A stretch of DNA of 64,000 nucleotides from NCBI RefSeq assembly GCF_027111255.2, contig NZ_CP114285.2, forward strand, positions 1,922,001 through 1,986,000, written 5' to 3'. Positions 429-35,809 of the stretch are shown piece by piece (the first letter of the stretch is position 1; the number at the start of each line of letters is the position of its first letter). A program made the translations under genes and the position numbers. This DNA is from Flavobacterium flavigenum (GTDB lineage Bacteria; Bacteroidota; Bacteroidia; Flavobacteriales; Flavobacteriaceae). Under the pieces are notes generated by a model. That model was not told the DNA's origin. It saw only the letters and a list, made by a program, of their open reading frames with translations, and did no database searches.

Positions 429-1178
429 CTACTTTTCACTTATCGTTGTCAATTGTAAAAATCGGTCGTTTTTATTCTCAAACAATTCAGTTGGCTTATT
501 CCCTGTTACTTTTTTCAGGTCTTTTATAAAATGTGACTGATCAAAATAATTATGTTCAGGGTAAAGCTGTCCCTTCTTGATATGTTTGTAAGAAGCATAA
601 CATTTTAAAATTTTACAATAGGACTTTAGAGAAATACCAAATCTGCTTTTAAAATAGCGATTAATTTGCCGACTCGTCCAAAAAACCTGTTTTGAATAAT
701 CTTCAACTGTCAGTTCACCATTTGTTTGATACAATAGAGAGAAAAGCTTTTGCTTTCTACTATCAATTTCTTTTTGACCATTTAAAATCGAAAGCATTCT
801 TTTATCCAATTTGTCTGTTACACTTTCCAAATCTTCAAATGAAGTTTTATCTAATTCCCAAAAACTGCTTTCTTTTATTTCTTCACTATCACAAAATGAT
901 GCAACACTTTGCTGTATAATATAATCAGCCGCCAATAGCTTAAAACGGATTCCGAAAAGCTGAACATTGGGATCAATGGATATTTCTACTTGTTTTGTCC
1001 ACAATCCGGTTAATGAAATTTCTTCCTGCTGCTGGTTATTAAATGAAACAATTAAATCAAAACAGCCGTCCGGCAGAATAGTAAAATCAAGTTGCTGATC
1101 TGTTGAATTATCAAACCACCAATAGTTCTTAACAAAATCACTTAGCACTACATCGGGCTGAAATTCTTTATAAATCAT
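429..1178 (-). CDS. AraC-family transcriptional regulator
   Basis: The 249-residue protein has a C-terminal AraC/XylS double helix-turn-helix (about residues 150-240), recognisable from YSKQVFWTSRQINRYFKSRF and then FDQSHFIKDLKKVTGNKP. The N-terminal half (ILPDGCFDLIVSF) resembles the small sensor domain (DUF6597 type) found in many Bacteroidota AraC proteins, whose ligand is unknown. Its first 11 bases overlap the end of the upstream 383-residue gene, which suggests translational coupling. The adjacent downstream VOC gene is a plausible target. The family call is firm; the inducer and regulon are unknown. Confidence 0.88.
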   Translation of the reverse strand: MIYKEFQPDVVLSDFVKNYWWFDNSTDQQLDFTILPDGCFDLIVSFNNQQQEEISLTGLWTKQVEISIDPNVQLFGIRFKLLAADYIIQQSVASFCDSEEIKESSFWELDKTSFEDLESVTDKLDKRMLSILNGQKEIDSRKQKLFSLLYQTNGELTVEDYSKQVFWTSRQINRYFKSRFGISLKSYCKILKCYASYKHIKKGQLYPEHNYFDQSHFIKDLKKVTGNKPTELFENKNDRFLQLTTISEK

Positions 1179-2319
1179 TTATTTTTTTGTCTGTTAGTTT
1201 ACAAGATCCTTCTTTCACGTACTTATCAATAATATATTTTGTTACGGGTCTTAATGGTTTTTTATTATTTTCAGGATGCATTCCGTGTGTGTTAAAAAAT
1301 TCTATCCCATCTCCTACTTTAGCATACCATATAACAGCTTCTCCGTTTTTAAAAAAAGTAGTGGTATCACACACCTTAATTTTTCGAAGGTTAATTATTC
1401 TTTCATCAAAAGGTTCGACTACATTGTAGGTTCCTATTCCCTGTATTTCTAAATCACAGCTTACTTCTTCATAATGATCTCCTGACCATTGCATGCATTC
1501 GTTTTTTTGTGTGAAGTAATAATAAGCTAAAAGTCCTAGAAAAGAAAGTATTCCCATCCCAACCCATTTATTCCGTTTTATCCAATCACCCTTTTCTTGG
1601 CCTGGATCACCTTCAATGCCCAAAAATAATTCTACTGGCTTAAGAACTTGTGTTATTTTAACTTCTTTTAAAATATTTTCTTCTTTTGGAATTCCATGAT
1701 CGATGATTAATTTCTCTTCTTCATTAAATAGTGCTGTTTTATCTAAATTTTCTTCTTCCAATAAATTACTCTCCTCACTTAATTTTTCTATTTGAATTGA
1801 ATCTTCATTTTTAACTTCGCTTTCAATTTGAAACTCTTGAGCAGTTTCTATTTCATACATCAAATCATTTTCTTCTTCCGTATTTTTCTGACCATTGGTA
1901 TAATGCTTTTTAAACTTCGCAAAAGGTCTAAATTCAAAATCAACTAAAACTGCCGCAAAATTTATAGTATCAATTTTTGCTGGTTTCGTTTCTCCTTTAA
2001 AAAACCTTCCAACTTTTTTAAATTTATCAGTATAAGTAGTTGAAGTATCTTCATTATTTGAATCAAATTTAAATTTAAAAAAATCACTGTATGCATTTAA
2101 ATCATCTGTGTTTTCATTTGATTTAAAAATCTTCCAACACAAATCCCTCAAGTTAGCTTGAGACGGATTATTCAAATAATTAGAATAAATCCCCTCTTTT
2201 TCTTTTTCAAATTTACTTCTAACTGCTTCTTTATAATCATCTTCATTTAAAGTATTGTTATACATAGGCATCACTTTTATACTATTTTTTTCCGGACATA
2301 ATCGGATTTTTCTGGACAT
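1168..2319 (-). CDS. hypothetical protein with one central transmembrane segment
   Basis: I do not recognise this 383-residue protein. The N-terminal 250 residues are hydrophilic and acidic (many E and N). A single hydrophobic segment (WVGMGILSFLGLLAYYYF, about residues 250-268) follows and is preceded by KRNK, consistent with a cytoplasmic N-terminus. The C-terminal 115 residues would then be periplasmic and contain two or three cysteines. In-frame Met codons at residues 17 and 19 (2271 and 2265) are alternative starts and may be better, because the first 16 residues look unstructured. It overlaps the AraC gene by 11 bp. No function is inferred. Confidence 0.7.
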   Translation of the reverse strand: MSRKIRLCPEKNSIKVMPMYNNTLNEDDYKEAVRSKFEKEKEGIYSNYLNNPSQANLRDLCWKIFKSNENTDDLNAYSDFFKFKFDSNNEDTSTTYTDKFKKVGRFFKGETKPAKIDTINFAAVLVDFEFRPFAKFKKHYTNGQKNTEEENDLMYEIETAQEFQIESEVKNEDSIQIEKLSEESNLLEEENLDKTALFNEEEKLIIDHGIPKEENILKEVKITQVLKPVELFLGIEGDPGQEKGDWIKRNKWVGMGILSFLGLLAYYYFTQKNECMQWSGDHYEEVSCDLEIQGIGTYNVVEPFDERIINLRKIKVCDTTTFFKNGEAVIWYAKVGDGIEFFNTHGMHPENNKKPLRPVTKYIIDKYVKEGSCKLTDKKINDL

Positions 2320-2627
2320 CTCAAACCTTTATAGGATTTAAATCGACTTTTCAGGGCGTCCCGGAATTCCGTATCAATTCAGGTTTGCAATGGTTGTTAC
2401 TTTGCCTCAGAATCAAGTTAACGTTTTGATCTGCAGGTTAAAACAAAAGTACAAAACTAGTTCAATTAAAAGTGCGGAAAACCGTAAGACGGACTTTATC
2501 CGGGAAGTATAAATAAAATTTTACTGTTCTACGCACTTCACTTCCCAACCAAAATTTGGTATTGCCAAACAAGATCTGGACAGAATCCGGACAGCAATAC
2601 CCATGTCTAATTTTAAATCACAAAAAG
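2320..2627. other. 308-bp intergenic region with a structured leader
   Basis: This region separates divergent genes. Its right half, before the lipoprotein gene, holds a nested inverted repeat: GGTATTGC at 2558-2565 pairs with GCAATACC at 2594-2601. Inside it TCTGGA and TCCGGA pair with one G-U. In RNA this would be a hairpin ending about 26 nt upstream of the start codon. An upstream segment (2470-2510) is GC-richer, with CGGAAAACCG. No gene was found. Confidence 0.6.
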
Positions 2628-2792
2628 ATGAAAACTTTATTTTTAATGGGAGCGTTTGCGCTATTGACAACTACATTATTTTCCTGCACAGCAGATGAAT
2701 ATGAAACTCAGACTAAAAAAGATGTCGCACCAGCTTATGCTGATGGCCCTGGAGATCAGCCTATCATTGTACCGCCACCGCCAACTAAATAA
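2628..2792 (+). CDS. small proline-tailed lipoprotein (54 aa)
   Basis: The ORF can be extended upstream from a TTG, but the sensible start is the ATG at 2628 after an A-rich stretch. It gives a 54-residue product with a classical lipoprotein signal (MKTLFLMGAFALLTTTLFSC, lipobox Cys 20). The mature part is only 35 residues and ends in GPGDQPIIVPPPPTK. A sensor kinase and response regulator follow 60 bp downstream in the same direction. Small lipoproteins of this make occur beside such kinases in flavobacteria, as far as I recall. Its role is unknown; a structural or signalling partner of the kinase is inference. Confidence 0.8.
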   Translation: MKTLFLMGAFALLTTTLFSCTADEYETQTKKDVAPAYADGPGDQPIIVPPPPTK

Positions 2793-2852
2793 TTAATCAA
2801 TTAAAAATCTGTAATTTATATTTAATTACTAATTTCGGGGAAAGTAAATTCT

Positions 2853-4553
2853 ATGTTACGATCCCCGTTTTTTTGTTTCGTCATTTTCCTTTTACTCCTT
2901 TCGTGCACGAAAAAAGCTCCTATTGCCCTTAATCAGGAAGCTATAAAAAAGGAAGCCGTTAACTTAAGAAATAAAGGAATCTCAAACATGGAGAAAAAAA
3001 ACTTTAATACGGCTTTCTACAATTTCAACAAATCAAAAATAATCTTTGAAAGAGTAAAAGACAGTGGCAATGTTGTCTTCAATCTTATTCAGATGGCTTC
3101 CATTCAACAAGTTAATGGCGATTATTACGGAAGTAAGGAAACCTTAACAGAGGCATTGCCTTATATCAAAAAAAAAGATGTTTACAGTGCTTCTGTCAAT
3201 AACTCTTTTGGCATTGCAGATAAGGAGCTTTCTATTTACAATGATGCCATTCATTATTACAAAGAAGCAATAAAAGAATGCACAGATTCTGTTTCAAGAC
3301 AAGGACCGCTAAATAATATTGCAGTCGTATACATCCATCAAAAAAAATACGATAACGCAATCCGTATATTAGAAACTATTGTTGATTCAGAAACATTAGA
3401 CAATCAATCTCTAATAAACAATAAAGCAAGAGTTTTAGACAATTTAGGTTATGCTTATTTTAAAAAAGACATCCCTGAAAAAGGTCTTATTCTAATGACA
3501 GAAAGTTTTAAACTAAGAAATAAGATTAATGATACATACGGAGCTATCGAAAGCAATTTGCATCTGGCAGAATATTACTCAAAAACTGACACAGGAAAAT
3601 CAAATAATTATGCTATAAATGCTTATAAAATCGCGACTAAATGTAATAGTATAGATGAACGTTTAAAATCTTTAGCAATCTTAATAGCCAATGGTTCGGG
3701 AACTAAATATGCAAAAAAGTACCTTACCCTAAACGACAGCATAATTAAAATCAGAAATAATTATAAAAATAAATTTGCTAAAATAAAATACGATTCAAAA
3801 AAAGAAAAAGACGAAAACCAGAAACTGCGCTTAGAAAAAGCAGAAAATTTATTGGCTCTTCAGGAAGTTAAATACCAAAGAATCTTTTTTATAATTGGAA
3901 TTATTTCCCTGTTCTGTTTAATGGCCTATCTAAAAAAACGGTATGAGAACCGAAACCGAATTGAAAAAATAAAAACAGCCTACGATACCGAAACCAGAAT
4001 TGCCAAAGATATCCATGATGAACTGGCCAATGATGTTTTTCATACTATTACTTACGCACAAACCCAGTCTTTAACTTCCGGGAACAATAAAGAAACCTTA
4101 TTACAAAACCTCGACCATATTTATTCACGCGTTCGCGGAATTTCCAGAGAGAATAGCAATGTTGATACCGGTCCTAATTATGCTGCCAACTTAAAAGAAA
4201 TGCTTTCGAATTATAATAGCAGCAATACCAACGTTATTATTACAAACATTGAAAAGATAAACTGGGAGAACCTGGATGATGAAAAAAAGGTTACCATCCA
4301 TAGAGTACTTCAGGAATTAATGGTCAACATGAAAAAACACAGTGAAGCTTCTTTGGTCGCTATTAAATTTGATAGTAAATCGAATTTGGTGTCTATCAAT
4401 TATTCGGACAACGGAAAAGGCTGTGAAAAATCAAAAATCATACAAAATGGTTTGCAAAATATGGAAAACCGTATTCTGGCCATAAAAGGAACTATTACTT
4501 TTGATACTGAACCCGATAAAGGTTTCAAAGCACAAATAACAATGCCTAAATAA
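2853..4553 (+). CDS. TPR-containing sensor histidine kinase
   Basis: The 566-residue protein starts with a lipoprotein-like signal (Cys 18 in LLLLSCTKK). Tetratricopeptide repeats fill about residues 30-290 (for example GNTKGAI-like units such as YNDAIHYYKEAIKE and YDNAIRILETIV). A coiled coil, one membrane helix (about 343-362, IFFIIGIISLFCLMAYL), an H-box KDIHDELAND (His 388) and a HATPase_c domain with DNGKGC and a C-terminal GFKAQITMP follow. The H-box and short kinase core match NarL-type (HisKA_3-like) kinases paired with LuxR regulators. The TPR region would lie outside the inner membrane. It sits 6 bp from its response regulator. The stimulus is unknown. Confidence 0.9.
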   Translation: MLRSPFFCFVIFLLLLSCTKKAPIALNQEAIKKEAVNLRNKGISNMEKKNFNTAFYNFNKSKIIFERVKDSGNVVFNLIQMASIQQVNGDYYGSKETLTEALPYIKKKDVYSASVNNSFGIADKELSIYNDAIHYYKEAIKECTDSVSRQGPLNNIAVVYIHQKKYDNAIRILETIVDSETLDNQSLINNKARVLDNLGYAYFKKDIPEKGLILMTESFKLRNKINDTYGAIESNLHLAEYYSKTDTGKSNNYAINAYKIATKCNSIDERLKSLAILIANGSGTKYAKKYLTLNDSIIKIRNNYKNKFAKIKYDSKKEKDENQKLRLEKAENLLALQEVKYQRIFFIIGIISLFCLMAYLKKRYENRNRIEKIKTAYDTETRIAKDIHDELANDVFHTITYAQTQSLTSGNNKETLLQNLDHIYSRVRGISRENSNVDTGPNYAANLKEMLSNYNSSNTNVIITNIEKINWENLDDEKKVTIHRVLQELMVNMKKHSEASLVAIKFDSKSNLVSINYSDNGKGCEKSKIIQNGLQNMENRILAIKGTITFDTEPDKGFKAQITMPK

Positions 4554-4559
4554 AAGCCT

Positions 4560-5228
4560 ATGTTTAAAAAAGTAATAATAGCAGAAGATTTTGAAGAATT
4601 CAATTTAGCAGTCAAACAAACTTTAACTGATTTCAACATTGTCAATTTTCAACATGCAAAATATTGTGATGATGCTTTTCTAAAAATAAGAAAAGCTATT
4701 CAGGATAATGAACCTTACGATTTATTAATTAGTGATCTTTCATTTAAAAAAGACCATCGTGAGGTAAAAATAATTAGCGGAGATGAACTAATTCAAAAAG
4801 TTCGGGAGGTACAGCCTAATATTAAAATCATCGTCTACTCAATCGAAGACAAAGGAATTCGCATCAAATCACTTTTTGAAAATGATGAAATTGATGCCTT
4901 TGTATTAAAAGGACGAAACAGTATCGAAGAATTTAAGAAAGCAATCAGCATTATTTCGACTTCAGACCAAAAGTTCATTTCTCCGGAAGTAGCATCTGCC
5001 CTTCAGGAAAAAAATAATTACGAAATTGACGATGTAGATATTCAGATTCTAAAACACCTGTCTGCTGGCACTTCGCAGGATGAAATCATAGAAATTTTTA
5101 AAAACTCAGATATTAAGCCCAACAGCAAAAGTGCTGTCGAAAAAAGGCTTTCAAAACTCAAAGACTTTTTTAAAGCAAATAATACGGTTCATCTGGTTTC
5201 GATTACAAAAGATATGGGTATTATTTAA
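4560..5228 (+). CDS. response regulator, LuxR/NarL-like
   Basis: The 222-residue protein has an N-terminal receiver domain with the acidic pair E9/D10 and the phospho-acceptor in YDLLISDLSF (Asp 59). The C-terminal region (about 155-222) is helical and ends KSAVEKRLSKLKDFF, a helix-turn-helix diverged from standard LuxR. The partner kinase is directly upstream with 6 bp between, so the pair forms one two-component system. A clear hairpin terminator follows. The DNA target is not visible; the small lipoprotein gene upstream is one candidate. Confidence 0.88.
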   Translation: MFKKVIIAEDFEEFNLAVKQTLTDFNIVNFQHAKYCDDAFLKIRKAIQDNEPYDLLISDLSFKKDHREVKIISGDELIQKVREVQPNIKIIVYSIEDKGIRIKSLFENDEIDAFVLKGRNSIEEFKKAISIISTSDQKFISPEVASALQEKNNYEIDDVDIQILKHLSAGTSQDEIIEIFKNSDIKPNSKSAVEKRLSKLKDFFKANNTVHLVSITKDMGII

Positions 5229-29282: not shown

Positions 29283-29308
29283 AAAAATAAACAGTGAAAA
29301 CCCATATA

Positions 29309-30604
29309 ATGGCAAAACAAAAAGTTACTTTTTTCTGGTTCCGACGCGATTTGCGTTTAGAAGACAATACTGGATTATTTCACGCCTTACAATCCGGTTT
29401 TCCTGTTATTCCGCTTTTTATTTTTGATGACTCAATTCTGGAAAGCCTCCCAAAAAATGATGCCAGAGTGAATTTCATCTATGATTCACTTGAAAAGATA
29501 AACACTGAATTGCATGCTGTACCATCTTCAATCTTAATCAAAAAAGGAAACACTAAAAACGTCTGGCAGTCACTTATCGAAGAATTTGATATTCAAACTG
29601 TTTTCTTCAACAAAGATTACGAACCTTATGCCATTAAGCGTGATTTAGCCATTACCAAAGTATTAAAAGAAAACAATATTGAATCTTTCTCCTTCAAAGA
29701 TCACGTTATTTTTGAAGAAAAAGAAATCACAAAAACTGATGGTCTCCCATATACAGTTTACACACCCTACAAAAACAAATGGCTGGAGAAATATAAAATG
29801 GCAGGACAAGTTCCTGAATACGATACCAAACCATTATTGAGCAACTTTGCGAAAACTTCATGTCCATTTCCTGCATTACCTGAAATTGGTTTTGAAAGAA
29901 GCTCGATAAAAGTCCAGCCACACAACTTAAGCCAGATTGGAAATTATAAAGAAACCCGTGATTTCCCGGCTTTAGACAGTACTTCGTATCTTTCACCGCA
30001 TTTGCGTTTTGGAACCGTTAGTATTCGGAAATTAGTGAATTGGGCCAACCGAAAAAACCAGATTTTTTTGAGCGAATTAATCTGGAGGGAATTCTTTATT
30101 CAGATTCTGTTTAGCTTTCCGAAATGTGTCAATCACAATTTCAAACCAGCTTATGACGGAATTGAGTGGCGCAATAACGAAGACGATTTCAAGCGCTGGT
30201 GCTCCGGAACAACAGGTTATCCCATGGTCGATGCCGGAATGCGTCAACTCAACGAGACCGGTTATATGCACAATCGCGTACGTATGGTGGTAGCGAGTTT
30301 TTTATGCAAACATCTATTGATCAACTGGCAATGGGGCGAAGCTTATTTTGCAGAGAAATTATTAGATTTTGAATTAGCCTCCAACGTTGGCAACTGGCAA
30401 TGGGCAGCCGGAACGGGCTGTGATGCTGCTCCGTATTTCAGGGTTTTTAATCCGGAAATCCAGCAAAAGAAATTCGACGAAAAAGGAACCTACATCCGCA
30501 AATGGATTCCTGAATTTGATTTGGGTTATAATGAACCAATGATTGATCATGCTTTTGCGAGGGATCGTGCAATTGCGACTTACAAGACGGGGATTTTGAA
30601 GTAA
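29309..30604 (+). CDS. phrB: deoxyribodipyrimidine photolyase/cryptochrome family protein
   Basis: The start was set at the ATG at 29309 (MAKQKVTFFWFRRDLRLEDN); the longer frame uses a GTG at 29294. The 431-residue protein has an N-terminal alpha/beta antenna-binding domain and a C-terminal FAD domain with WREFFIQILFSFP, GYPMVDAGMRQLNETGYMHNR and GNWQWAAGTGCDAAPYFRVF. The Trp-rich FAD motif and DAAPYFR match class I CPD photolyases. It splits UV dimers with blue light. Placement after carotenoid genes fits a photoprotection cluster. Confidence 0.93.
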   Translation: MAKQKVTFFWFRRDLRLEDNTGLFHALQSGFPVIPLFIFDDSILESLPKNDARVNFIYDSLEKINTELHAVPSSILIKKGNTKNVWQSLIEEFDIQTVFFNKDYEPYAIKRDLAITKVLKENNIESFSFKDHVIFEEKEITKTDGLPYTVYTPYKNKWLEKYKMAGQVPEYDTKPLLSNFAKTSCPFPALPEIGFERSSIKVQPHNLSQIGNYKETRDFPALDSTSYLSPHLRFGTVSIRKLVNWANRKNQIFLSELIWREFFIQILFSFPKCVNHNFKPAYDGIEWRNNEDDFKRWCSGTTGYPMVDAGMRQLNETGYMHNRVRMVVASFLCKHLLINWQWGEAYFAEKLLDFELASNVGNWQWAAGTGCDAAPYFRVFNPEIQQKKFDEKGTYIRKWIPEFDLGYNEPMIDHAFARDRAIATYKTGILK

Positions 30605-30737
30605 TGTTACCTTGTTATTTTCGACTTATGAAAAATGAGTATTTCAGTGAAATGCAAAATTGTTAATATAAAATACAAAACCAACTTCCCATTAAGTTTA
30701 TTGCCTCAAATCCGTTGTAGCTTTTAATAGTTCGTTT

Positions 30738-31184
30738 TTATTTTTTAACAAGGAATCTCAGTTTTTCTTTTTTAAATTGATATTCAATTTCCTCAAAATT
30801 TCTATTTTCAATTATTTCTCTTTCTTTGATGTCAATAATAAAACTTACTTTAGTAATCCAAGTATTAGAAACATTTGAAAAGTCAGAGTCAATTTCTTTT
30901 TCATCAGAGTCAATTTCAATTTCATAATCTTTGGTCAGTAAGGTTATTTTAGTTCCACGAGATGTTTTTAAATTCAAATGACTCAGAATTGTAGAATTCA
31001 TAAATAAAAATCCATTTAATTCCTGAAAGTCTAACCAAAATTGACCTTGTTTTGATTCTGCAATTTTAATACCTGAAATATTTTTAATTTTCTCTTCAGT
31101 GTGAGTATCAACGTGTAATTTTTCAATTGCCCTAATATTTCCAAGAGCTGCTAAAATTTCATCTTTTTTTCTTAAAATATTCAT
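30738..31184 (-). CDS. hypothetical protein
   Basis: The 148-residue protein is Ile/Lys/Glu-rich, has no signal peptide and starts MNILRKKDEILAALGNIRAIEK. It appears helical at the N-terminus and beta-rich afterwards (TKITLLTKDYEIEIDSDEK). No family is recognised. It follows the broken antitoxin-like gene by 29 bp, in the place where a toxin gene would stand, but it does not look like a RelE/ParE toxin. Confidence 0.6.
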   Translation of the reverse strand: MNILRKKDEILAALGNIRAIEKLHVDTHTEEKIKNISGIKIAESKQGQFWLDFQELNGFLFMNSTILSHLNLKTSRGTKITLLTKDYEIEIDSDEKEIDSDFSNVSNTWITKVSFIIDIKEREIIENRNFEEIEYQFKKEKLRFLVKK

Positions 31185-31213
31185 TTACTCGATTTTTATT
31201 TTTAGTAAAAACT

Positions 31214-31470
31214 CTAAAAGTTAATAGAAATGATTTTATCCCATTTTTCTATTTCGGAAATTAGTTTACTGTTCTCGGTCAGTTTTCCATTTTCAGAATC
31301 TTCGGCTGACTTATCAATTCTTTTCTGAAACTCTTTTATTGTCATTGGTTTCAACTCACAACTATTTTGTTTTTTTTCTGTAATAGTTTTTCTAAATGAG
31401 AAATTGCTTTCTCACTTTCTAGTTTGAGAAAATCTTTTATAAAATTTAATTTTCGAGTTTGCAAATCCAT
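31214..31470 (-). pseudogene. antitoxin-like gene split by a frameshift in an A8 run
   Basis: Two short minus-strand ORFs lie end to end. The first (31351-31470, 39 aa) starts MDLQTRKLNFIKDFLKLE; the second (31214-31345, 43 aa) starts MTIKEFQKRIDKSAEDSENG. Together they match the plan of about 75-residue Bacteroidota antitoxin-like proteins, in which the second part follows a -ELKPM- linker. Here CELKPMTIKEF is readable in the -1 frame directly upstream of the second ORF. The break falls on A AAA AAC (A8 run, 31370-31377). One lost A, or -1 slippage, would explain it. No cognate toxin gene is adjacent. Confidence 0.6.
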
Positions 31471-31696
31471 TTTTTCTGTCTTTCTTTTTTCTAAACTACA
31501 AATTAACTTTAAACGATTGTTTTATTTTATACAGATTTTGCCAAACCAGAGTTTTGGCGTATATCTTTTTTGACTCGTCATAAGATACTAAACTCAATCT
31601 GTCTGTCGTTTGTAACTAATGCCTATTTTAAAACGAGTTTCATTGTTCGTGCTACGCACGCAACGAAATTATAGCTGTTAACAGTAGTAATTTCTT

Positions 31697-32425
31697 TCAA
31701 AATCTACTGTCAATTTCAACATCTCTATTGAGTCCATTTAGTAGGTTTTCAAATGCTTCATTTGGTGTCTTTCCACCTGTCAATTTATATATTAAACTCT
31801 TAATATTGAATTTACAATAAACTCCTTTTCTTGGATTATATAAGCCTGCAAATTTCCAATTTTCTTCTCCGCTTACTTGTCTTAAAGCGATGTAAATAAA
31901 TAGTTGTTTTAAGTCACTTGATTTGAAATTTCTGTTTACTGTTTTTATCTCAAATAATGAATCTCCAATTGAAATGTCTGCAAACAAATCAGGTATAAAG
32001 CTATATCCTTTTAACTTTGGCTTGAATATGACGTCTTTTCCGCCCAATTTTTCAATAAATTCAAGTGTGTTGTCTGCGATAGAAATTATTTCTAGTTTCT
32101 CGATTTCTGAAATACTTAAATCATTTTCAGAATAATTGCCAGACCTCCAAATACTTCTTGCGGTTTCTTCTATAATTATATCTTGTTCCTTTTCGGTGAA
32201 TGCGTTCAAAGGAGTTACCTTGTTCAAAAAGGCAAATTCAGAAAGGTTAAAAGCAGCTTCTGAAACTAAATCATACCTTACTTCATCTAAAGCAATTACT
32301 TGTTTTGCATTTATCGCTGTAATTTGGGTATCATTAAACACGCGAATGAAAGTTGGTGTAAGTAATGGAAAATGCTGTTTCCATATTGCACTGAATTTTT
32401 CAGATATATCTCTTTCACTTATCAT
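31697..32425 (-). CDS. PD-(D/E)XK nuclease-like partner of the reverse transcriptase
   Basis: The 242-residue protein has a clear PD-(D/E)XK signature: Asp 146 in FIPDLFADISIG, Glu 159 and Lys 161 in LFEIKTV, and a following helix with Gln 174 (DLKQLFIYIAL). The N-terminal 130 residues are helical and unrecognised. The start codon overlaps the stop region of the reverse transcriptase gene by 4 bp (32422-32425), so the two are coupled and probably work together. No signal peptide or membrane segment is present. A role in phage defence is inferred from the pairing; the catalytic residues are seen directly. Confidence 0.8.
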   Translation of the reverse strand: MISERDISEKFSAIWKQHFPLLTPTFIRVFNDTQITAINAKQVIALDEVRYDLVSEAAFNLSEFAFLNKVTPLNAFTEKEQDIIIEETARSIWRSGNYSENDLSISEIEKLEIISIADNTLEFIEKLGGKDVIFKPKLKGYSFIPDLFADISIGDSLFEIKTVNRNFKSSDLKQLFIYIALRQVSGEENWKFAGLYNPRKGVYCKFNIKSLIYKLTGGKTPNEAFENLLNGLNRDVEIDSRF

Positions 32426-34014
32426 ACTAATATGTTTTGATTAGCTTGTTTTCTCATAGCACACCAGTCTCTAAAAAGTTTTTCTTCCTTACTGAATAGT
32501 TTTTTGTTATCGCCTCTCCAATGATTACCCTCATCATCTAAGAAATATGATGCATAAATAACTGCTCTTCTTTCCCAAGCCGTCAATGTTGTAAAGTTGT
32601 TTTTTATATCAACAAGCCAATAATGACAGTTCCAATTTGACATTGCAATAATTATTTGCCTCTTAATAAAGTGGTTTATTGGCATTTCAAATAGTTTGAC
32701 GAACAAATACTCTTTTTCAGCTGAGTGTCTTATAGATAATATTTGTATGATATAACTGATATTCATTTCTATTTTAGTTAGAAAACTTTCAATGTTGAAT
32801 AAGTTAATTAGTGAGCTATCAACCAAATCTTTACCCTCATTAATCAAGTCATCATAAACACTTCTTACAGATCGCATAATTGAAGTGAAAACAGGAGAGA
32901 GTGTTACCAAATTATTTTGGTCAAGTAAAATTTTTACTGCTTGCACTTGATTTTCAGGTATCAATGCTTTTATAGCGTTGATAGCTTGCTTTGTAACCGT
33001 TTGGTCAATTCTCGTTTTGTTAACCTCTCTAGAAAGAATACCGATAATATCAATTTCTCTTACGGCTTCCTTTAGAGTTTCATAATCTTCGACTGCTGTA
33101 GCTGAGTAAGGGTCGAATCGTATCGAAATATTTAGTAGTTTTTGTTCATCTTCTGCAACTTCCGAATTTGGTTGTGGGTCAAGAAATAGGTGTATTTCTT
33201 TGAATTCTTCGGATGCCATAATTTTAGTTTTATCTTTTTGCAATCCAAGTTGGTCGTTAGATAACTTTTCAGAAAGCAGAATTAGTTTTTTATATGCATC
33301 AGATTCACTTTCACAAAATATTGTGTAGTCATCTGCATACCTGCAAAAAACAACTCCTTTTGATTTTAAATGTTTGTCTGTATGATTAAGAGCGAGTTCT
33401 GCTAAAATTCTTGAAGCAGGACCACCAACTGGAAGTCCATAAGAAATTGTTCCAGAGAACTTGCTAAGTATTTTCATTATTTTGCCTTGAACTTTGTTGT
33501 TTGGGTCAATTCGTTTTAATTCATTCTCTAATTTATGATGGTTAATTCTGGGATAAAAATTTGATATGTCAGTTTGTAAAACATAGTTGTAATTTTTCGA
33601 ATACTCAATGCACTGTTTTTTATAATCTATCCAAGTAGTATCCTTGAATAATGACCCAGTTGATTCATTCCATTGATAACGATATGAGAATACATTTTTT
33701 TCTTGTTCATTTAGTCTTTTGTTTTCAATGTCTTCAGCTATTGATATAACAAGTCCTAAGAAATATGCATTCCAAAAAGGTTCAATTAATGTTGCTTGTC
33801 TGAAGCCATAATATCCAACTTGGCTTAGTTCAACTATAGTCAAAGGTGGCGATTGTGCAATTGCTTCATCAATATTATTGTGATAAGCCTCTAAAATATC
33901 TAGAGTTTCTTCCAACTTTTGTTCAAAAAGATTTCGTTCAAATGGAAACGGGAAAATGTCTGTGTCACCGTGTCGAACTATATTTTCCAATGCTTTTTTA
34001 AAATTGTCTCTCAT
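32422..34014 (-). CDS. reverse transcriptase, unknown-group/defence type
   Basis: The 530-residue protein has the RT palm motifs: motif A QTDISNFYPRIN (Asp 149), motif B YGLPVGGPASRILAELAL (192-208), motif C RYADD (Asp 228 and 229), motif D LGLQKDKTKI and motif E IHLFLD. An N-terminal 140-residue region and a C-terminal 250-residue helical region flank them. There is no maturase or HNH domain, so it is not a group II intron protein. The GLPVGGPASRILAE form of motif B and helical C-terminal part resemble the Abi/UG-type (DRT) reverse transcriptases used in phage defence. The subclass was not determined. Confidence 0.85.
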   Translation of the reverse strand: MRDNFKKALENIVRHGDTDIFPFPFERNLFEQKLEETLDILEAYHNNIDEAIAQSPPLTIVELSQVGYYGFRQATLIEPFWNAYFLGLVISIAEDIENKRLNEQEKNVFSYRYQWNESTGSLFKDTTWIDYKKQCIEYSKNYNYVLQTDISNFYPRINHHKLENELKRIDPNNKVQGKIMKILSKFSGTISYGLPVGGPASRILAELALNHTDKHLKSKGVVFCRYADDYTIFCESESDAYKKLILLSEKLSNDQLGLQKDKTKIMASEEFKEIHLFLDPQPNSEVAEDEQKLLNISIRFDPYSATAVEDYETLKEAVREIDIIGILSREVNKTRIDQTVTKQAINAIKALIPENQVQAVKILLDQNNLVTLSPVFTSIMRSVRSVYDDLINEGKDLVDSSLINLFNIESFLTKIEMNISYIIQILSIRHSAEKEYLFVKLFEMPINHFIKRQIIIAMSNWNCHYWLVDIKNNFTTLTAWERRAVIYASYFLDDEGNHWRGDNKKLFSKEEKLFRDWCAMRKQANQNILV

Positions 34015-34267
34015 TTATCTTGATGTATTGTGGTCGTCTTTAAAATTGGTGCTAACTCATTTATATCAGCCATAAAATGACTTAAATAAACTTATTTTGT
34101 GTTCGCTTTGTGCCATAAATTGCTTAGCGAATATAGGAAAAACTTTCATAAATCTTTAAATATAATTTTATACCTCAGAGAACTTCTATACCGTTTAGCC
34201 TGACCGCTATTTTAATTTCAACAAATGGATTATTAACACTAAAAATATACTTATGAAACCTAAACCC
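34015..34267. other. 253-bp non-coding region upstream of the reverse transcriptase
   Basis: No ORF was found. Read on the minus strand, this is the leader of the RT gene. It contains an inverted repeat TTCGCT (34102-34107) with AGCGAA (34126-34131). No clean TAnnTTTG box is present. Some defence RTs use a non-coding RNA encoded next to them, so a template RNA here is possible but unproven. Confidence 0.4.
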
Positions 34268-34387
34268 CTAGCCCAGATGGAAACGGCATCCTTTTGTGGC
34301 GGTCCCGATAACTATCGGGAGCAAACAAAAGATACAGTGTACAGCTGGACACGAGCGATATCGAACTGACGAAGTAAATAGCTCCTG
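34268..34387. repeat. dispersed structured repeat, family A, copy 1
   Basis: Begins CTAGCCCAGATGGAAACGGC and ends TAGCTCCTG, with both ends shared with the copy at 53451-53530. The base pairs CTAG-CCAG with CTGG and TAG. The centre carries TTTTGT/ACAAAA and a hairpin TCCCGATA/TATCGGGA. A 25-nt extra segment lies near the right end. It abuts the stop codon of the SDR gene. Confidence 0.75.
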
Positions 34388-34390
34388 AAA

Positions 34391-35809
34391 CTACTTAATG
34401 AGTTTATTCAGCATTCCGTTGAAGATAAAGCCATGAAAAGGCAGAACGGAATACCAGTACAATTTTCCTAAGATTCCTTTTGGCTTAAAAGTTGCTGCCT
34501 GATACAACGTATTGTGAATGATTTTAAATTCGAGCCAGGCTTCGCCGGGGAGTTTCATTTCGGCATATAAAATCAGTTTTCCTTCTTTTTTATTGGCGTA
34601 CAGAACGCGCCAAAAATCGAGTGCGTCTCCGGGATAAATATTGTGTTTATTGGTCCTGCCGCGACGGGAACCAACGCCTCCAAACAGCTTATCGATAAAA
34701 CCTCTCAAGCTCCAGAGCCAGTCACCATAATACCAGCCGGTATCGCCTCCAATAGACCAAATCTGATTAATGGTATAATCCCGATCCAGAATTTCTTTTT
34801 TTCGCCGGTCAATGTAACAGCCTTTTTTAGGCACTTTTATATGTGAAGAAAGTCTTTGGCTCAACCTGCCGCTAATGAGTGAATCCTTCCAGCTTGAAGC
34901 CACTTTATCTTCATCCACTTTTAACAAGGCTCTTGAAAGCGCTTCTTTGTAACTGATTGGCTGTACACCTAAAAGGTCATTGATGCGGTGATCGCTGCAA
35001 ATTACCTCCACTTTCATACTGCTTACCAAAGCGGTTGCCAGTTTATAGGAAGTCGAGGTTACAAAATACAGCCAGTAGGATGACAGTTTGGGTGTCATTA
35101 CCGGAATGGTAAAAATATACCTTTTTAGATTTTTTGCTTCGGCGAAAGCCAGTAGCATTTGTTTGTAGGTTAGAATATCCGGACCTCCAATATCAAAACT
35201 TTGATTATAGGTAAGGGTATTAAAAAGTGATTTTGAAAGGAATTCCAATACATCATTGATGGCAATTGGCTGGCATTTTGTATTGAGCCATTTAGGCGTA
35301 ATCATGACAGGAAGTTTGTTGACCAGATCACGGATAATTTCGAAAGAAGCACTTCCGGATCCTACTATAATTCCTGCTCTTAACGTCGTCAATGGCACTT
35401 TTGATTTTGCTAAAATACTTTCGACATTTTTGCGTGAAGACAGATGTTTTGAGAGTGATTTATCATTTACGATTCCGCTCAAATATAAAATTTGCTGCGC
35501 CTGGGTTTGATTGATCCTCTCTGAAAAATTCGCTGCCGAAATACTTTCGAGTTCATCATAATTGGTATCAGAACCCGACATGGAATGGATGAGATAAAAT
35601 GCAGCATCAATATCTGCCGGAATATTTACCAGGGTTGATTTATCTAAAAAATCAACTTCAACAACCTGTATTTTTCCCTGGAAATCTTCAGGTACATAAA
35701 ATCTGTTTTTATCCCTTACAGAACAAACTACATCATGACCTTGTGCTAACAAAATAGGTAAAATCCGTTTACCGATATAACCTGTAGCGCCTGTTAGCAG
35801 AATTTTCAT
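34391..35809 (-). CDS. SDR-family NAD(P)-binding protein with DUF2867 C-terminus
   Basis: The 472-residue protein has an N-terminal atypical SDR fold (LLTGATGYIGKRILPILLAQGH) of about 290 residues. A C-terminal domain with PGDALDFWRVLYANK and LPGEAWLEFKI (DUF2867-like) follows. It is the last gene of a five-gene operon, 5 bp after the second SDR. Genes of this type occur with photolyase clusters in flavobacteria, from memory. The substrate is unknown. Confidence 0.85.
   Translation of the reverse strand: MKILLTGATGYIGKRILPILLAQGHDVVCSVRDKNRFYVPEDFQGKIQVVEVDFLDKSTLVNIPADIDAAFYLIHSMSGSDTNYDELESISAANFSERINQTQAQQILYLSGIVNDKSLSKHLSSRKNVESILAKSKVPLTTLRAGIIVGSGSASFEIIRDLVNKLPVMITPKWLNTKCQPIAINDVLEFLSKSLFNTLTYNQSFDIGGPDILTYKQMLLAFAEAKNLKRYIFTIPVMTPKLSSYWLYFVTSTSYKLATALVSSMKVEVICSDHRINDLLGVQPISYKEALSRALLKVDEDKVASSWKDSLISGRLSQRLSSHIKVPKKGCYIDRRKKEILDRDYTINQIWSIGGDTGWYYGDWLWSLRGFIDKLFGGVGSRRGRTNKHNIYPGDALDFWRVLYANKKEGKLILYAEMKLPGEAWLEFKIIHNTLYQAATFKPKGILGKLYWYSVLPFHGFIFNGMLNKLIK

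Follow-up and report, generated by a model that had tools for sequence, protein, structure and literature searches.

The question raised by this locus is what a reverse transcriptase (RT) and a nuclease do together when their genes overlap in a Flavobacterium genome of 5.43 Mb on a single contig. Do the two proteins form a defence system, is such a system new, and how might the action of one be tied to that of the other? The pair lies in a 64,000-nt stretch of that genome, the whole of which is referred to here as the window, and is near certainly a DRT type 8 (DRT8) anti-phage system, which is a known type. The RT gene (32422-34014, minus strand) is an open reading frame (ORF) of 530 residues matched by the PADLOC model PDLC03783, Drt8, and by Pfam RVT_1. 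The second gene (31697-32425, minus strand) encodes a DRT8-associated PD-(D/E)XK nuclease of 242 residues with a predicted RecB/MGME1-like fold, and the stop of the first overlaps the start of the second by 4 bp (32422-32425, minus strand). Both ORFs and their overlap had been described in an earlier note on this DNA and are present as it gave them.

The assignment comes from comparison with dedicated models. Drt8 is the best-scoring PADLOC family for the RT, with 539 bits (E 3e-162) against 148 bits for the second-best, UG21, and the adjoining nuclease matches the RTasPDDEXK family with 216 bits. RVT_1, in the RT, is the only Pfam match above cut-off in either protein, and no NCBIfam model exceeded its own cut-off for either. 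The active sites of both are intact, with D149, D228 and D229 of the RT and D150, E159 and K161 of the nuclease all present and invariant among aligned homologues. Matches of this size, together with recurrence of the pair in 22 distinct loci, rule out chance as its origin. The RT therefore groups with defence families and its coupled partner is a PD-(D/E)XK nuclease, both as the earlier note had proposed; that note did not recall the pairing as a named system, but the PADLOC models identify it as DRT8 and novelty is rejected. PMC12596737 characterises DRT8 by its PD-(D/E)XK domain, and PMC13213688 and PMC13314766 count it as an antiphage type of unresolved mechanism, the phage protection being reported for the type rather than for this locus. 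Literature searches around DRT8, UG7 and the nuclease found no paper dedicated to the DRT8 mechanism in the library searched. Nothing was found to set the window member, known here from its sequence, apart from the type.

What kind of nuclease is this? RecB-type PD-(D/E)XK enzymes combine a D...ExK motif with QxxxY, their hallmark, in a RecB-like fold; in the DRT8 nuclease the motifs are invariant and the fold is predicted to be RecB/AddAB/MGME1-like. The active-site stretch (31892-32008, minus strand) contains G140, D150 (31976-31978), E159 (31949-31951), K161, Q174 and Y178, all invariant in 129 of 129 homologues and found also in 14 divergent members. E159 and K161 of the triad first suggested, D146/E159/K161, thus stand, but D146 is rejected as the catalytic aspartate: position 146 is D in 115 of the 129 sequences (8 N, 4 S, 1 R and 1 Q in the others), and the aspartate that is invariant, including in 14/14 of the divergent members, is D150. 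Cas4 requires four cysteines for its 4Fe-4S cluster, and the 18 nuclease sequences compared have no column with at least nine cysteines, which places the protein outside Cas4. With Foldseek the single match at E ≤0.001 was ACE1 (TM 0.42), and a sequence search of the PDB returned a single meaningless match (E 0.67). Relative to RecB/AddAB/AdnAB, MGME1 and ACE1, the DRT8 nuclease is without a helicase part and without conserved Cas4-type iron-sulphur cysteines.

How widespread is the pair, and how constant is its composition? Around the window genome, on which the sampling of genomes was centred and which is included in the counts, matches are rare. With a separate threshold for each rank, they occur in 2/150 genomes of the genus (E 1e-50), 2/397 of the family (E 1e-80), 4/395 of the class (E 1e-60) and 6/395 of the phylum (E 1e-80). 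A search that began from the nuclease matched, at E 0.001, five of the 395 genomes from the phylum: three strongly, each with an RT adjoining, and two weakly (E 5e-4 and 9e-4), whose fetched stretch contains no RT. A phage collection yielded no match at E 1e-20; two viral contigs carry copies of the RT of the pair, identical in both, and two other viral scans gave none. In total 28 distinct loci were assembled, comprising the window, 13 genome contigs, the two viral contigs, five further genomes (G204, G728, G171, G224 and G436) and seven plasmid loci, with near-identical plasmid records (two more from R. leguminosarum and one more from Caballeronia) left out.

The nuclease lies 3' of the RT in 22 of these 28 loci, so that the two genes are neighbours in other genomes too, and in all 22 its open frame reaches into the 3' end of the RT. 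By the starts picked in this analysis the two genes share 4 bp at 14 loci and 11-23 bp at the others; for Rhizobium (L027) the record annotation instead begins the nuclease 110 bp past the RT. Some of the RTs are damaged or incomplete. The F. fluviatile copy (L013) is broken by an in-frame stop and that of Comamonas (L060) lacks its N-terminus and adjoins an IS3 transposase, each beside an intact nuclease ORF, and at L020, near a contig end, the sequence covers no more than roughly the final 230 residues of the RT. At the other six loci (L029, L030, L056, L057, L058 and L059) a Drt8-model RT stands without a nuclease in the fetched 4.1-9.5 kb. A tree of 24 RTs contains one branch, with support 92/96 and recovered in 89% of bootstrap trees, that splits nuclease-paired from unpaired proteins; the unpaired set includes long branches. 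Because this single branch divides the two, the pairing changed at least once and has been kept since, in Bacteroidota, Pseudomonadota and a metagenome-assembled genome of Ignavibacteriota. Between loci, RT identity and nuclease identity correlate with r 0.96 (153 pairs, 18 loci), as expected under co-inheritance. PDLC03783 nevertheless gives the nuclease-less RTs of L029 and L030, which are 26-28% identical, 454-534 bits, near the scores of the paired RTs, and since they score nearly as high a nuclease cannot be presumed from a Drt8 call by itself.

At L056 the nuclease-less RT is followed, after at least 41 bp, by a Hypoth_Ymh (PF09509) open frame (623-1450, minus strand), a possible alternative partner. 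At L029, on the Aminobacter plasmid NZ_AP017988.1 (1534-7653), a HerA-like ATPase gene stands upstream of the Drt8-model RT and a retron VII-A1 (RT-DUF3800) gene just downstream, so that two RT systems adjoin. Comparison of 10 flanking proteins from eight loci with PADLOC gave three matches, at two loci (Mucilaginibacter L015 and Longitalea L011), and no general defence-island result. In the former (1556-4744, minus strand) a SIR2-Argonaute gene (PADLOC pAgo, 1388 bits) is 256 bp from DRT8.

Does the RT copy a template? The aligned set of 158 homologues consists of the best of the matches listed, the window and seven loci, and in all 158 the catalytic D149 (33568-33570, minus strand) and D228-D229 of the YADD motif (33328-33333, minus strand) are invariant, so the aspartates noticed earlier are indeed intact. 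After the RT domain comes an all-helical C-terminal domain (residues 289-523; 32446-33150, minus strand). This C-terminal helical (alpha-repeat) domain, a feature of class 1 of the UG/Abi RTs, is seen in the predicted model and in its structural alignment, which extends over the full length of the model with the template-free DRT6, DRT4 and AbiK and is confined to the RT domain with DRT9 and DRT2. The fold is thus predicted to be of class 1, AbiK/DRT4/DRT6-like, to which DRT8 adds a co-encoded nuclease. The alternative is a class 2-like system that copies a hidden non-coding RNA. Class 2 DRTs encode such an RNA in cis, according to PMC13174585, and one that is short, divergent or distantly encoded could escape detection. 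When the 400 bp on either side of the genes at 11 loci were compared by blastn, matches appeared in 3/110 flank pairs, two of them printed as exact stretches of 15-16 bp, against 218/220 of the 150-nt RT-gene pieces that served to control for sensitivity, a second control with a known class 2 system not having been run. No adjacent RNA was therefore found in these flanks, a result that argues against a conserved RNA beside DRT8 genes. Rfam gives a single match close to the two genes, Flavo-1 (34266-34355), parts of which recur at many positions in the genome and which is likely a dispersed repeat rather than a DRT RNA. Templating by RNA consequently seems very improbable. Class-1 fold and lack of flanking RNA together make protein-primed synthesis without a template likely, and the absence of a template in particular is probable.

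If the polymerase is primed by protein, where might the first nucleotide be attached? A candidate is Y303 (33106-33108) of the DPYS motif (residues 301-304; 33103-33114, minus strand), which sits in a low-confidence loop between the RT and helical domains (model confidence, pLDDT, below 50 at residues 302-305). Among the listed homologues Y303 is conserved in 158/158, D301 and P302 in 157 each and S304 in 155. The priming tyrosines of AbiA occupy an inter-domain loop, parallel to the position of Y303. DPYS occurs in 21 of 21 readable nuclease-paired RTs and in none of the six unpaired ones. All six of the latter have a tyrosine within the 45 residues that start 50 after the DD, which chance would often give and from which nothing is drawn. 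On this evidence priming at Y303 is about an even chance.

Together these features suggest a mechanism in which the RT would make untemplated single-stranded DNA, with the new DNA covalently attached to its own Y303, and the DNA-loaded RT would then switch the nuclease on during infection. The nuclease would be a DNA-cutting effector that is off when alone and that the RT, with its DNA, would license. That a DRT8 cassette consists, in all these respects, of a template-free, Y303-primed RT licensing a RecB-type nuclease effector is plausible at slightly under an even chance, and the effector role itself, off until licensed, is put forward a little more tentatively. It is preferred on account of (i) the tight coupling of RT and nuclease, (ii) the presence at L056 of a gene other than the nuclease, Hypoth_Ymh, downstream of its RT, (iii) the SLOG-PNP effector mentioned alongside DRT8 in PMC10952713, (iv) the precedent of DRT1, whose adducts, as PMC13275509 describes, keep a nitrilase dormant within a filament, so that RT-made DNA regulates an effector, and (v) the loci at which the RT is broken and the nuclease ORF intact, which oppose release from restraint. 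DRT1 shares the proposed logic with DRT8 but belongs to a different class, class 3, and has its nitrilase fused in one chain.

Release from restraint is what a retron-like arrangement would involve. In retrons a toxic effector is held by the RT and its DNA, and here the same partners would keep a toxic nuclease inactive until infection frees it. The parallel with retrons and the DRT1 filament, where adducts hold the nitrilase dormant, favour this view, but at the two loci with a broken RT a free toxin, if expressed, should not be permitted beside an intact ORF, and restraint of this kind appears improbable.

Several observations weigh against the licensed effector. The nearest folds of the nuclease (AdnA, AddAB, MGME1, RecE and Dna2) process DNA ends, which would suit clearing of the RT product at least as well. 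In AbiA the nuclease residues of the HEPN domain are dispensable for defence; that domain is fused, and the DRT8 nuclease is separate and of PD-(D/E)XK type. An r of 0.96 is expected for any co-inherited pair, and the five nuclease-less loci other than L056 have no recognised effector beside the RT among the few flanking ORFs scanned; the RT of this outgroup may act alone. As regards Y303, the priming residue of AbiK, Tyr44, belongs to the fingers rather than to a linker loop such as that between the RT and helical domains of DRT8, so the priming site is not to be assumed, and Y303 is present in 16/17 of the wider Drt8-model set and hence not universal. Absent from all six nuclease-less RTs, DPYS might instead be where the nuclease docks. 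Because the pairing represents one event in the tree its correlation with DPYS counts once, and with P-Y retained in the nuclease-less L030 a docking motif is left as a possibility.

The end-processing fold leads to the other alternative, in which toxic single-stranded DNA made by the RT would be constantly broken down, or shortened from its free 3' end, by the RecB/MGME1-like nuclease. Phage proteins covering or obstructing DNA ends would upset this equilibrium and leave the cell arrested. Besides the fold, precedents exist in the host nucleases ExoI and RecBCD (PMC13174585), and no ExoI match was found in the window genome, other host exonucleases not being surveyed. Against it are the six distant Drt8-model RTs without an adjacent nuclease, and the two broken-RT loci are too few to indicate a direction. 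Such built-in clearing is a real but minority possibility. Somewhat less likely again is its fuller form, DRT8 as a self-policing DNA writer in which a class-1 polymerase would extend toxic single-stranded DNA from Y303 and its own RecB/MGME1-like exonuclease would remove it. In DRT9 and DRT3 safety is provided by host ExoI/RecBCD, of which DRT8 would have the built-in version.

How did the cassette come to lie where it does? The pair is inserted between a photolyase gene (29294-30604, plus strand) and an SDR gene (34391-35809, minus strand), in a spacer of 3786 bp (30605-34390). Among 20 loci with the SDR gene, one being the window, in six of the 19 relatives this photolyase adjoins that gene tail to tail, with spacers of 6, 62, 84, 146, 235 and 283 bp including both stop codons, that is 0-277 bp between the genes. 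Of the other 13, only L052 shows a photolyase, at a distance; the flanks fetched for the remaining 12 contain none. Since 3786 bp in the window stands against 0-277 bp in the relatives, the DRT8 cassette is an insertion at this convergent spacer, which confirms its position within a conserved photolyase/SDR block, as had been supposed, with one 148-residue ORF accompanying the pair. That ORF (30738-31184, minus strand) has no Pfam, PADLOC or NCBIfam match and was not found at the 20 SDR loci within the stretches covered there. Between about 31200 and 31480 (minus strand) a short, seemingly interrupted reading frame, read by eye, resembles small antitoxin-like proteins. Flavo-1 lies at the right edge of the insertion, and a promoter scan gave 18 sites against 17.0 expected.

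What does this mean for DRT8? The locus is no new system but a further member of a known one, for which one nuclease residue has been corrected and a hypothesis of priming at Y303 added. Its identity, near certain, the co-conservation and co-inheritance of its genes and the invariance of both active sites are established here, and the mechanism is what we infer from them. RTs that match the PADLOC Drt8 model form two sets, one with DPYS and a nuclease and a distant one with neither. DRT8 resists phages by a mechanism that is unsolved according to PMC13213688 and PMC13314766, and the analysis reduces the question to a few point mutations. Were the self-policing reading true, phage proteins that bind DNA ends or inhibit nucleases would be the trigger.
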